This document shows, one piece after another, positions 25,535 to 63,622 of a DNA stretch of 64,000 nucleotides. Below the pieces are notes generated by a model, which searched no databases, was not told the DNA's origin, and was given only the letters and a program-made list of their open reading frames with translations. Both the position numbers and the translations under genes were made by a program. The DNA is from Axinella damicornis. Lineage: Eukaryota > Porifera > Demospongiae > Axinellida > Axinellidae. The first letter of the stretch is position 1, and each line of letters starts with the position of its first letter. The stretch is from positions 6,054,646-6,118,645 of the forward strand of contig OZ007514.1 in NCBI GenBank assembly GCA_963931865.1. Direction: 5' to 3'.

Positions 25535-26382
25535 ACTGAGATAAATTCGCTGTTCTCATGCACCCCGATTCTATCCTCAATTGTTTCATTAAACGTTGCA
25601 TGATTTGGCTAAGAAATTGTGCTGAATTTAATGGTGTTCCCATTTTGAAAATCCACTGTCTGAAGTACGAACAACATTCAAAAATTATACTTGATACCAT
25701 CTTACACACCTATACTCTAGCCCCACCTCCATGCTCCCACCAACCCCCAGCCCCACCCATCCCAGCCCCGCCCACCTACCCCCATGCACCCACCCAGCCC
25801 CACCCCACATGCTCCCACCCTCCCCAGCCCCACCCCCCATGCTCCCACCCTCCCCAGCCCCACCCCCATGCTTCCCCCCTCCCCAGCCCCACCCACCCCC
25901 ATGCTCCCCCCTCCCATGCTCCCCCCCCCTCCCATGCTCCCCCCTTCCCATGCTCCCACCCCACCCTGGTGGTGAAAGGTCGTAGCTAGGGTTAGGTTAG
26001 GGTGAGGGCTCACCTCACCTTTACCTAACCCGAGCTAAACCAAACCCGAATGACAAAGATACAATTTGATGCTCTTTATATACTCGCAGGGAGCCAGCCG
26101 GCAACGCGTGACCCAGCCATGTAACGCTCTAATTTGATTGGTTAGTATCCGCGTGAAACAATTGCGCGTGCCTGGCAAATGTGCACGCGCAGACCACAAC
26201 CAACGAGGAGCGTGTCCGCGTCTTTGTCGTTTTCTGGTACTACTCACCTCTATCCTCTGGTAGGTCCTCTGCCATTGGCACTCCTTCTGTTGCTGTCGTT
26301 GTAGTTAACTTCACAGGCCTTCTTCGATCTACGCCTCCCGTTTACTCCGAATGCCTTTCAGCAGGCAGCTAGTAATCTGGTA
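25535..26382. repeat. Segmental duplication copy 1 (empty site for the 51.9 kb transposon)
   Basis: Near-identical to 51203-51920 joined to 53188-53268. It includes a G/C-rich minisatellite (25725-25975, units built on CCCCAGCCCCACCCCC and CATGCTCCCACC), a GGTTAGGTTAGGGTGAGGG motif and a block starting TTTGATGCTCTTTATATACT. Here TGTTGCTGTCGTTGTA runs directly into GTTAACTTCACAGGCC (about 26307), whereas copy 2 has 1261 bp inserted at that point. Confidence 0.9.
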
Positions 26383-26782
26383 CTGGCGGCTAGAGACAGG
26401 AATAAAATAAATTAGTGAACTTTACCCTTTTCGCGCCGCGGTTCCAAACTGACTACATGGACCGTGGTTTTGTCATCATGCTGCCTGCAAATGGAGTCGT
26501 GCAGTATCATTGCATGCAAACGGTGATATGAACCCACGAGGTGAGTATATAGTAGCATGATACAGAGGTGGGTATATCTAGTAGCATAGAATTGGTATAC
26601 AAGAATAGCTCATGAAAAGTAATTTTCGCTTTATCTGAGGTAGGCAAGTGAAACAAAACCAGTTTCCTGAGGGTTCTGCTGATAGGTTTACACATGACCT
26701 GAGGTGGTGAGCATGTTCAAATTCACCAGTAGATCGTAGTTATTCATACAAACACTTACCAGTGAATCACATAGCCTCATTC
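26383..26782. repeat. MITE end and gene-free flank
   Basis: GGCGGCTAGAGACAGGAATA followed by AAATTAGTGAACTTT starts right at the edge of the segmental duplication. It is the inverse of blocks at about 27110-27157 and 31290-31340. Nothing else is recognised. Confidence 0.5.
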
Positions 26783-51202: not shown

Positions 51203-51920
51203 AATAAATTCGCTGTTCTCATGCACCCCGAATCTATCCTCAATTGTTTCATTAAACGTTGCATGATTTGGCTAAGAAATTGTGCTGAATTTAATGGTGT
51301 TCCCATTTTGAAAATCCACGGTCTGAAGTACGAACAACATTCAAAAATTATACTTGATACCATCTTACACACCTATACTCTAGCCCCACCTCCATGCTCC
51401 CACCAACCCCCGGCCCCACCCATCCCAGCCCCACCCACCTACCCCCATGCACCCACCCCCCATGCTCCCACCCTCCCCAGCCCCACCCACCCCCATGCTT
51501 CCCCCCCCCCCCCTCCCCAGCCCCATCCACCCCCATGCTCCCCCCCTCCCATGCTCCCCCCCTCCCATGCTCCCACCCCACCCTGGTGGTGAAAGTTCGT
51601 AGCTAGGGTTAGGTTAGGGTGAGGGCTCACCTCACCTTTACCTAACCCGAGCTAAACCAAACCCAAATGACAAATATACAATTTGATGCTCTTTATATAC
51701 TCGCAGGGAGCCAGCCGGCAACGCGTGACCCAGCCATGTAACGCTCTAATTTGATTGGTTAGTATCCGCGTGAAACAATTGCGCGTGCCTGGCAAATGTG
51801 CACGCGCAGACCACAACCAACGAGGAGCGTGTCCGCGTCTTTGTCGTTTTCTGGTACTACTCACCTCGATCCTCTGGTAGGTCCTCTGCCATTGGCACTC
51901 CTTCTGTTGCTGTCGTTGTA
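51203..51920. repeat. Segmental duplication copy 2, left part
   Basis: Near-identical to 25535-26307. The main difference is a shorter G/C-rich minisatellite here (51388-51590 against 25725-25975). It ends at GTTGTA (51915-51920), the target-site duplication of the inserted transposon. Confidence 0.9.
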
Positions 51921-53181
51921 GGGGTCAACTGACTTATACGGACTCAATACTTAAGGGGGTATTACTAAAGTTCGAGTTCGAGTTCGAGTTCGAGTTCGAG
52001 TTCGAGTTCGAGTTCGAGTTCGAGTTCGAGTTCGAGTTCGAGTTCGAGAGCAGCAGCAGCTGAAGCGGACGCAATCGGGGAGAAGCAGCTCTTCAGAGAG
52101 CTTCGAGTTCGAGTTCGATCATAGATAATATGGGCAGACAGAGTTCCAGATGGAAGATAGTGACTGTCACCTTTATGCTGCTGTCTTTTGAGTGTGCAAC
52201 GTATAGGAACAGCCCAGCTACTCAGAGGTAAAGTGATTTGTCAGACATTGCACGTTCTCAAGGCCAGTAGCTCTAGTTGGAATTTTGTCTCAGATACATG
52301 ACGATGATCATGACACCATGTTCCTTACCTTCAGGAGCCTGACAAGAATCTTGCAGTGACTATAACGGAAAATTGTATGTATTGAAGTTGGACTCTAATG
52401 TTAGGTTTCTCCTTACAAACTATAATAATTATTGTACACTCCATTGTTGTCAATGACTTATTTCCAACTGGGGTCCAAGTAGGACAGCCATATGCATAGT
52501 CCATAATTATAGCTACTGTAGGACAAAACACAGGTCCATAGTCTGCGAATTGACCACTGCTTCATTTTCCATCAACGATGTTGTTTGCATCTTTGCTCCG
52601 GCACAATACTGTGGTGCTATCTACTTAAGTCATTGTAGTACAGGCACATGACAGTATACGCAGTGAGCAACATATATATATCACATATGTAATGACATCA
52701 GCATGCACTATAGTGGGTGTGGTTTGGAGATGGATGAATCTCAAAACTGAATGGAACGTGTGAATATAACAACAAAAAATGTGTGTGTGTGCTTTGAAAA
52801 AATAGTAGCTACTCTATATCAATCCCACAGCTGCAGTTCAATGCAATTGAAACATGTTCCCGTGTGATTGGCATATCAAGATCCACGATGATCCTAGGTG
52901 GTAGAACAGTTAGATTGCTGCAAGCGACGATAAGCTGGGCGGGGCCTGGGAACGAGGCTAGCAGCCTAGCACCTGGCATTATGTAGGAGAAAATCCTAGC
53001 GCTGTAGGGGCGGTACCGGTATACTACGACAGGAATTACGGTGTGTACTGCGCGCGCGCGACCGTCAACTCGAACTCGAACTCGAACTCGAACTCGAACT
53101 TTAGCAATCCCCTACTTAAGGTATATTAGGGACAGGGCAGGTACTAATTATCCATGTTGTCCGTATAAGTCAGTTGATCCC
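51921..53181. mobile_element. Complete 1261 bp non-autonomous DNA transposon with 6 bp target-site duplication
   Basis: The ends are inverted copies (left GGGGTCAACTGACTTATA, right, read inward, GGGATCAACTGACTTATA; 22 of 23 matching) and are flanked by GTTGTA at 51915-51920 and 53182-53187. The paralogous copy at 25.5-26.4 kb has a single GTTGTA and no insert. Just inside both ends lies CTTAAG, then AAAGTTCGAG..., i.e. a (GAGTTC)n array in inverted orientation: about 12 or more units on the left (51971-52048), about 5 on the right (53068-53100). No open frame longer than about 70 codons and no transposase motif. The 6 bp duplication does not fit hAT (8), piggyBac (TTAA) or mariner (TA). Dada-type elements have 6-7 bp. 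Superfamily open. Confidence 0.9.
51971..52048. repeat. (GAGTTC)n subterminal array, left
   Basis: A pure hexamer array (GTTCGA units) of about 78 bases that belongs to the long terminal inverted repeat of the 1261 bp element. The right-hand counterpart is shorter (53068-53100), so the two arrays changed length independently. Confidence 0.9.
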
Positions 53182-53187
53182 GTTGTA

Positions 53188-53270
53188 GTTAACTTCACAG
53201 GCCTTCTTCGATCTACGCCTCCCGTTTACTCCGAATGCCTTTCAGCAGGCAGCTAGTAATCTGGTACTGC
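53188..53270. repeat. Segmental duplication copy 2, right part
   Basis: Continues the match to copy 1 (GTTAACTTCACAGGCC through CTAGTAATCTGGTACTG, 26308-26387) after the transposon. The two copies diverge at the end of this block. Confidence 0.9.
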
Positions 53271-60871: not shown

Positions 60872-63622
60872 CTGCAACACAAAATACACAACACAAAATA
60901 CACAGGAATCAAACACATTGTACTATAGTGGAATCAAACACATTGTACTATAGTGTGTGGGTGGATCATGGCTTCAGAATAGTATTCTGAAGCCATGTGA
61001 CAGCTGTGGTTTATAGAAATAGAACATGCATGCTGACTATAGCAAGTTTTCGTTTCTAAATAACTCAGATACTTGTGGAAAATAATATTTGTACTGACTG
61101 TGCTGTTGATTAAATAGTGCCTTTACCATAAAACCTAGCAGAAACTAAAGAGCATATCTGACAGTCGAGAGATCTATTCATGCATACCAGCAGTGATGGC
61201 TCCAGATGCACCGGGACTGCAGACCTTGGGAGTCAGTTGGCCTGCTACATCTGAGGGAGGTGTACCTGTGGAATAATATTACGATACACACCGTTAGTTC
61301 TAGTGATGCAGTTAATAGCCAATGTTATCAAGGTGTAGGTGCACATCGTAATACATAACATACCGAGGATGCCAATCGTGTCCTTCACAGCAGGTGGTGA
61401 AAGCTTCAGCTCAGACAGTTTTTCTGTAAAGGTATAAACAAAGAGATGAGAAGTGTATCAGACCAAGACATAAGCAGACGAATCTCACAACCACACTATC
61501 CCATAGTCGGTCACATGATGACCATGTACTCAAACCTCATCACCATAACACGTACCAACTGCACCAGAAGTCCGAGGGAACCACACCAGGTGCTGCTCTG
61601 TCAGTTTGCTGCAGACCTCAGCTCGATTCACGGTGCAAGTCATCCACCTACGGTTGCTTTCAACTGTGGCGACGTGCATGCGTGGAACGGGTGCATCTGT
61701 AGAAGTAATGTGGTCACCTGAACAGAAGAAGGCATCTTGTGGCACAGAATTGTTGTAGTTGAGATTGCGCGATGCACTGCGCAAGCCTGCAATGATTGCT
61801 TCCCGAATTTGTGGACACACTTCTGGAGACAGCTCTGAAGCAATGGCTGCAGGAAGTTGAATACTCACTTGGAAGTAGGTTGAGAACGAATCGGTGAGTG
61901 TGATTCTTCCGGGACGACCTCCTGGGACTTCGAACTCGATGGTGTTGCGGTCAACTTTGGCTGGGCATTGACCGCTAGCATCACTGAGCAGCTTCCATTT
62001 GGCCTGAGAAAGAAGGTACGCTGCTAGACCACAGAACACTCCAACTAGAGGACTGTGGGGGAAGTAAAACAGCAGGGACAGGACACTGCTACTGGGAGAG
62101 AGGAGAGTGGGGTCCTCTGTCACTGGTAAGAGACAGGGCATGAGGTACTCCTGTTCAGTGATCGGGGACACTATGAGGAGCTTTGTGAAAAGCTTCAGCA
62201 GCTGGACAGGACCAAAAAGGCCTGGGACATAATGTTTCGAAAACTCCGGCTTGCTAAGGAGTTCTAGCGTCACAATTCCCTGATCACGAAATCGAAGCAG
62301 CTTACCTTCAACTGCTTTATGTTGACTTGGATCGGTTTTCAACCTGTGGATATGCTCTACTAATTCTGCTATCTTGTCAAGGAGCACCTGGGAGTCACAA
62401 AAGATGATATCAGGAAGCACGTCCTTGTAGTAGAAGAGAATGTTAAGATTGTCAAGGTACTTCAGAGCTTCCTCAAATGACTCCTCATCGAAGTGAAATT
62501 TTTGTGCCACTGCAAAGCCCTCAGCTTTGCTGAGCACACCTCGCCCTAGTTCCAGCATCCGCTTCTCAAGTGCATGCTCAAGGGCATACCATCGAAGTGG
62601 GATTTGCTTTGGTTTCACACGCGATCTTTCCACTATCACTCTTCTTATTTCGGCGGCAAATTCTCGTTCTTGAGGCCCGGGGTGTTTGGCATTCAATGGG
62701 AAAATGAGCTCCTTCAACCCTTCACCACAGTAGATGACATCATCGTGTACTGCTGGAAGGAGCATATCTCGAATCTTCTGATTTTTCTCCTCTCTTGATT
62801 CTGGGCACTGGTCCTCCAGATCCTTGTGGGTTCCTATGAAGATTGCATTGGGACAGAGGCCTTCCGCAGACTGGGATGCCTGTGACTGCATTACCCTCAT
62901 GCAGTGTCTCAGAATCTGTTCGTTGGTGTAAGCTGAGTAATACGGGATGCCAACACGCTTGCCATTGTCATTGAAGTACTCAATCAGTGGGTGATCACTG
63001 AGACTTGCATCGAGCCTGATTGCAAACATAGTGGCTGAAGTATCCCGCATGAATATGGGGAGTACCTCATGAAACTGCGGCTGTCCACCTGTGTCAATCA
63101 GACAGATTCGATCCTTCTTGAAGGCCTTCTTTGCATTTGCATGTGGTGACATCTCGATGCGTCGAAGTAGCTCATCTTTGGCAGAAGTGGAGACCGAGGA
63201 CGGAGTTTCATGGGTGATGGAGGATGGTATCGTGTGCTCTGGATGGCCAGTTTGTGGCTTTGAAGTACCTGCTACTGTGGGTGCGCTGGAAGATCCAGCT
63301 GGGGTTTTAGCATTCACAGCAGGCGATGGCTTTGATGGAAGCATTGTTGATGTGTCGGCAATAGTCTGCGCAAGTTGATCGTGGGTTATTCGGACAAACT
63401 TATTACCTCTTTTCTCAGCCCTAGTCCTCGATACGGCTCTAACCGGTCTTGTAGCACATGGTGTGCTACAGCGGACAGCGGGTGGATCTTCGTCCATAAT
63501 TAGCGCGATGGTGTGACTCTTTCCTGTTCCTGCTGCTCCCATAATGAGCGCTTTAATGTCCCTTGCCTCCACGTATCCATGTGTCATTGCCTCATCAAAC
63601 AGCTCCTTGGACTTCTCACTCG
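60558..63622 (-). CDS. Roco-family GTPase with C-terminal Death domain, 3' part of the gene, four exons
   Basis: Exons (minus): 63622-61556, 61423-61364, 61265-61188, 60871-60558. All introns are GT-AG and phase 1 and the joined frame is open to TAA at 60558. Exon 1 starts inside the gene (acceptor at 63623-63624). Roc domain: P-loop MGAAGTGKS, about 30 residues in; G3 DTGGQPQF after a Ser/Thr/Pro-rich insert of about 60 residues; G4 THKD in place of NKxD. The COR region follows (WYALEHALEKR...LDNLNILFYYKD, FGPVQLLKLFTKLLIVSP), with no kinase domain after it. The two small exons encode a Pro/Ser linker. The last exon encodes a Death domain (VWKDVGFLMDLD, CREMFELWL, ATWGDLIELL). Roco proteins are dimeric GTP switches; Death domains recruit partners by homotypic contacts, so a role in death or innate signalling is inferred. 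LRR or ankyrin repeats may lie upstream, beyond the window. A role in a known pathway is not shown. Confidence 0.9.
61556..63622 (-). CDS. Exon: Roc-COR module of the Roco-Death gene
   Basis: This is a single 2067 bp exon, with donor GTACGT (61555-61550) and acceptor CAG at 63623-63625. All the switch motifs and the whole COR region sit in one exon, which is common for animal Roco genes that spread by exon shuffling. The ATG at 63587 is internal and is not the gene start: the frame is open back to the acceptor (SEKSKELFDEAM precedes it). Confidence 0.9.

Follow-up and report, generated by a model that had tools for sequence, protein, structure and literature searches.

Is the insertion at positions 51914 to 53188 of a 64,000-nucleotide stretch of the sponge Axinella damicornis one transposon, or more than one? 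The stretch, called the window throughout, covers positions 6,054,646 to 6,118,645 of contig OZ007514.1 (assembly GCA_963931865.1, forward strand), and a sequence-only reading had described in it a single transposon of 1261 bp, flanked by a 6 bp target duplication and with hexamer arrays in its inverted repeats. Our analysis favours, with a probability of roughly 0.9, two nested elements: a 94 bp miniature inverted-repeat transposable element (MITE) hit by an internally deleted element of 1156 bp, related to a transposon of Mutator/Foldback type, the interior of which is flipped.

Two nested elements in a dispersed repeat

The features of the locus are as follows; T-type and G-type refer to the two kinds of terminus found in the inner family.

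51914–51921, no strand: left 8 bp target duplication of the outer MITE, CGTTGTAG
51922–51956, + strand: left part of the outer MITE, which contains one copy of the inner 9 bp duplication; 22 bp terminal inverted repeat (TIR) at 51922–51943, GGGTCAACTGACTTATACGGAC
51948–51956, no strand: left 9 bp target duplication of the inner element, TACTTAAGG
51957–53112, + strand: inner non-coding element of Mutator/Foldback type, 1156 bp, interior flipped
51957–51970, + strand: T-type terminus, GGGTATTACTAAAG
51971–52048, + strand: (TTCGAG)13 array, T-type side
52049–52101, + strand: interruption of the array by about 53 bp from an unrelated dispersed repeat (the patch)
52102–52118, + strand: continuation of the array on the inner side of the patch
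53069–53098, − strand: (TTCGAG)5 array, G-type side
53099–53112, − strand: G-type terminus, GGGGATTGCTAAAG
53113–53121, no strand: right 9 bp target duplication of the inner element, TACTTAAGG
53113–53180, + strand: right part of the outer MITE; 22 bp TIR at 53159–53180
53181–53188, no strand: right 8 bp target duplication of the outer MITE, CGTTGTAG
25541–26385, + strand: host-repeat copy with the uninterrupted site; CGTTGTAG occurs once, at 26297–26304

Once the inner element and one TACTTAAGG are removed from 51922–53180, the outer element measures 94 bp. The whole genome (226 Mb, 120 contigs) was searched for its ends with up to 3 mismatches, giving 23 places compared to 0 for a reversed-pattern control. 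At six loci (on contigs C2, C3, C7, C8, C11 and C12) forward and reverse outer ends begin 72–73 bases apart, and the solo elements so delimited are 95–96 bp long by pattern and about 94 bp by corrected ends; one of them, L020, is identical to the joined outer element at 93 of 94 positions. The 8 bp duplication is perfect in the window, L017, L019 and L020, agrees at 7 of 8 positions in L012 and is not clean in L009 and L029. Being short and non-coding, with inverted ends, a constant duplication length and several copies, the outer element is a MITE.

Several observations behind the single-transposon description hold. The inverted ends (51921–51943 and 53159–53181) match at 22 of 23 bases, the hexamer arrays are present with 13 units at 51971–52048 and 5 units at 53069–53098, and a repeat does flank the insertion; its length, however, is 8 bp (CGTTGTAG) rather than 6 bp, with the boundary fixed by the solo copies, and the arrays belong to the inner element alone, not to the outer inverted repeat. 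That the whole is one 1261 bp transposon is, for all that its outer ends match as inverted repeats and its flanks match each other, almost certainly wrong, because the outer ends recur as solo elements of about 94 bp, whose duplications, where clean, are 8 bp long, and the interior recurs between ends of its own, mostly with 9 bp duplications. In the end searches of this analysis (up to 3 mismatches for the outer ends and 2 for the inner), the window alone has these outer ends joined to this interior.

The outer MITE inserted into a dispersed repeat, of which at least 47 matching pieces occur (among the best 40 of 165 candidates scored). The same contig carries five copies at 96–100% identity, four uninterrupted across the site and one occupied, and weaker copies lie in other parts of the genome. 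The empty site reported earlier, at 25541–26385, is indeed an uninterrupted related locus (92% identical to 51204–51921 and 96% to 53170–53269), although it is a copy of this dispersed repeat. That a transposon entered one member of a set of repeats is supported, and insertion after the repeat copies had formed is the simplest reading. Close copies of the host segment (25541–26385 and 51204–53269 in the window) lie within the 5.69–6.11 Mb interval of C10, the contig that carries the window.

The account that we favour is two cut-and-paste insertions in succession: the MITE first entered one copy of the dispersed repeat by way of a transposase making 8 bp duplications, and the 1156 bp relative then entered the MITE, with a 9 bp duplication. 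Superfamilies that make 6 bp duplications (IS3EU, Dada, Polinton) were dropped for the outer element, since its duplication is 8 bp. Merlin elements are mobilised by an IS1595-type transposase, and a Merlin origin was set aside after 0 PF12762 matches were found in the genome at E 0.001, a result that a lost or diverged partner could also produce.

Outside the window, the end-match listing holds an outer-family end pair spanning 516 bp (C7:6589006-6589521). A sister MITE family has other inverted ends (GGATCAGTTGGAATATAYGGCACCGGAAGT; 60 genome-wide matches, control 0) and a 37 bp core in common with the outer MITE; its 8 bp duplications are perfect in L086 and L088, near-perfect in L082 and absent in L084 and L085. 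No coding relative turned up for the outer MITE, though no search aimed at hAT, P or KDZ transposases was made: among the matches listed, the window apart, the sole end pair above 1 kb is L088 of the sister family (C5:278056-279404, 1349 bp, duplication CAGCAGGC), and its longest frame has 110 codons. Elsewhere in the window, the longest of 54 listed open frames runs to 685 codons at 61530–63587 (− strand).

Unlike ends and flipped interiors

A search with the interior of the inner element returned 92 matching pieces (best 40 of 176 candidates scored). Measurements were made on 25 copies, comprising 20 fetched stretches, the window and four loci from the interior search; these tables omit L060, for which the other end was not found, and L071, the second end of which was completed separately. 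The copies range from 737 to 9041 bp. A first scan for duplications permitted shifted ends, and a repeat scan added a mismatched-flank control. Perfect duplications of at least 8 bp occur in 19 of the 25 copies, compared to 1 of 600 for mismatched flanks, and with fixed ends 14 of 25 have a 9 bp duplication. The first TTCGAG run counts 4–19 units at the T end and 2–16 at the G end, so that the family shows the composite inverted ends of variable-number tandem repeats that characterize Foldback-type elements.

The inner ends were also searched genome-wide, with up to 2 mismatches, and paired by hand. They occur at 54 places (27 and 27, compared to 1 and 1 in the reversed control), forming 26 pairs and leaving two unpaired ends (C1:3334989 and C5:20097151). 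Every one of the 26 pairs consists of one GGGTATTACT (T) end and one GGGGATTGCT (G) end, with no T/T or G/G pair, in a tally that assigns ATGTATTACT in L064 and GGGCATTGCT in L067b to their types. L071 has a G end that is degraded in its more inward part. The two termini, 14 bp each, differ at two positions.

Against these ends the interior lies in either of two orientations. The side beginning with TTGACGGTCGCG in copy L063 adjoins the T end in 20 of 25 copies and in L071, and adjoins the G end in 5 of 26 (the window, L067a, L068, L069 and L070). More specifically, the window interior aligns in reverse to L063 (7612 to 7247, 7014 to 6598 and 244 to 37), and the first 70 bases of the window copy are 100% identical to the L063 T end and 97% to the L063 G end. 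Four of the five flipped copies have clean duplications, which indicates that the flipped form has transposed. One flipped copy sits within an unflipped member of its own family, at L067 (C4:6620832-6622769).

Among the pairs listed, the inner inverted pairs of at least 18 bases in the window copy are the termini and the arrays, which makes exchange between arrays the simplest cause of the flip. Recombination between the inverted arrays is thus its likely origin: in an ancestor it would have reversed the interior, with the termini staying in place, and the flipped form would then have spread.

Two points weigh against this account. Since the termini differ at only two positions, the evidence for the flip consists of two bases at each end and the interior alignment. 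In a tree of an interior stretch (25 rows, 17 of them different; L078 and L079 absent), a branch supported at 100/99 sets the five flipped copies and the unflipped L071 apart from the other rows, but the five alone reach 70/76 with the bootstrap unsettled, so that a single origin of the flip is weakly supported. An alternative without any inversion is that the two distinguishing bases were exchanged between the ends, by gene conversion or by template switching through the arrays. Because the termini differ at just two positions (GGGTATTACT, GGGGATTGCT), short tracts would suffice; both ends would, however, have had to change in opposite directions, where array exchange needs one step, and T/T or G/G copies are absent from the 26 pairs. 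We regard base exchange, the rival to array recombination, as unlikely.

The uniform pairing also raises the idea that one end of each kind is needed for movement, as with unlike recombination signals, and that the arrays act as a built-in recombination site able to reverse the cargo with no loss of mobility, leaving the orientation of the interior free but not the pairing of the ends. This appears rather doubtful: shared descent alone would also yield unlike ends in all copies, and the rule is therefore offered as a suggestion and not as a result.

The window copy bears one further mark, the patch at 52049–52101. It is 98–100% identical over 49–53 bases to a repeat family with units of about 28–30 bp, found at a minimum of 39 other loci (best 40 of 569 candidates scored). 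A 41-base patch probe was present in all seven donor-repeat loci examined and in one of the 25 element copies, that of the window, and the patch is apparently templated filler, acquired when a break in the array was repaired. The donor repeat (L002–L008) has degenerate 28–30 bp units, and in five of its loci a sequence resembling a hairpin (GCTGAGC...GCTCAGC or close) lies towards one end. The hexamer run itself also occurs outside the inner family, at no fewer than four loci among 323 overlapping matches (C1:17433053, C1:18509791, C2:9699468 and C2:18493989).

Coding copies and superfamily of the inner family

An autonomous partner had been predicted for the non-coding element, and one was found in the form of two 7908 bp inner-family copies that are one base apart and have each their own duplications. 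They encode a DDE transposase of 1058 amino acids with a SWIM-like finger and, separately, an OTU-like protein in a frame of 245 codons. The transposase of these 7.9 kb members would mobilise the short copies in trans, and we infer that the flipped copies moved in this way.

Mutator-like elements (MULEs) carry a DDE triad with a C..H motif between the second D and the E. In an 18-row alignment of the transposase, D422 is invariant and D492, C516, H519 and E608 are kept at 90% or more, which is the same arrangement. The duplications agree with the 8–11 bp, usually 9 bp, of MULEs. In both fold comparisons ISCth4 (PDB 6xgx, 6xg8 and 6xgw), which we take to belong to the IS256 group, ranks first over model residues 236–547, and the structure model thus suggests the IS256-like catalytic fold of MULEs. 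ISCth4 is the nearest solved fold to the catalytic region, but it is a bacterial insertion sequence with 8% identity over the aligned part.

The SWIM zinc finger occurs in many MULE groups, though not in all. Its profile matches 4 of 18 proteins at E 0.1; the family's own protein scores 17.1 bits against a cut-off of 19.6, and P0004, at 21.3, lies above it. A profile search of solved sequences gave the SWIM finger as its sole match (E 0.022). As to the WRKY-GCM1 type DNA-binding domain of MULEs, the GCM domain 1odh_A is fourth in Foldseek (E 3.8e-4, TM-score by target 0.54), but with a root mean square deviation of 15.5 and no model range given, and it is not among the 50 rows of the other fold comparison. 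Pfam FLYWCH, the N-terminal finger of the Phantom subgroup, has 0 matches at E 0.1 in the 18 proteins, a zf-IS66 match in the family's own protein is weak (E 0.0086) and falls short of the cut-off, and the transposase has no match to phage records at E 1e-5.

Several results count against this account of the inner family. The ISCth4 TM-scores are low (0.17–0.18 by query, 0.32–0.38 by target), and the structure model comes from a homologue about 35% identical. Pfam MULE and OTU each reach E 0.1 in just one of the 18 proteins and under their cut-offs, MULE (PF10551) doing so in P0017 with E 0.0012 and 19.7 bits compared to a cut-off of 27.6. Six of the 25 copies have no perfect duplication, and that of L080 sits in a TATC run. 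The window interior is about 70–93% identical to the coding copies, so a different, unseen coding copy may have moved the window element.

Membership in another superfamily with 8–9 bp duplications (hAT, P or KDZ) is very improbable, given the IS256-type ISCth4 in first place in both fold comparisons, the usual 9 bp duplication, the C..H between the second D and the E, and the SWIM-like finger; hAT, P, RAG and retroviral integrase folds rank lower in the fold list, which excludes no family. The inner family is of Mutator/Foldback type, a further instance of an already known kind.

Known relatives and significance

The Drosophila Foldback elements are those known as FB/NOF. Like the inner family, Foldback elements have inverted ends of tandem repeats (PMC3169594). 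The closest plan that we compared is that of Tm1, a Mutator/Foldback family of root-knot nematodes: as presented in PMC3169594, it too has unlike short terminal motifs followed by variable tandem arrays, a short common motif being included in the plan, together with mostly 9 bp duplications, many short non-coding and few coding copies, and nesting. Tm1 differs in its array unit (13–15 bp compared to 6 bp), in a transposase likened to the Phantom subclass, where the inner family combines a SWIM-like finger with an OTU-like protein in a frame of its own, and in one copy with the same motif at both ends, compared to 0 of 26 pairs here; the passages on Tm1 that were compared describe no flipped class (PMC3169594). 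In PMC6446971, Phantom MULEs are given 8–10 bp duplications and variable ends, like the inner family, and MuDR-6_HM, a cnidarian Mutator element of group 14, is listed with 'Ovarian Tumour Gene', a domain type that the 245 codon frame resembles. The entry for MuDR-6_HM gives neither inverted repeats nor a duplication length (PMC6446971).

Taken together, the sponge genome holds a compact and apparently recently active Mutator/Foldback family. Its two coding copies, 7908 bp long, differ at a single base, two dozen further copies have paired ends, and a flipped form occurs naturally. The locus also illustrates how nested insertions can mislead on duplication length and family. Mostly this is an ordinary family, and its interest lies in the flipped isomer and the uniformly unlike ends; the set of copies allows us to ask what separate roles the unlike termini and the tandem arrays play.
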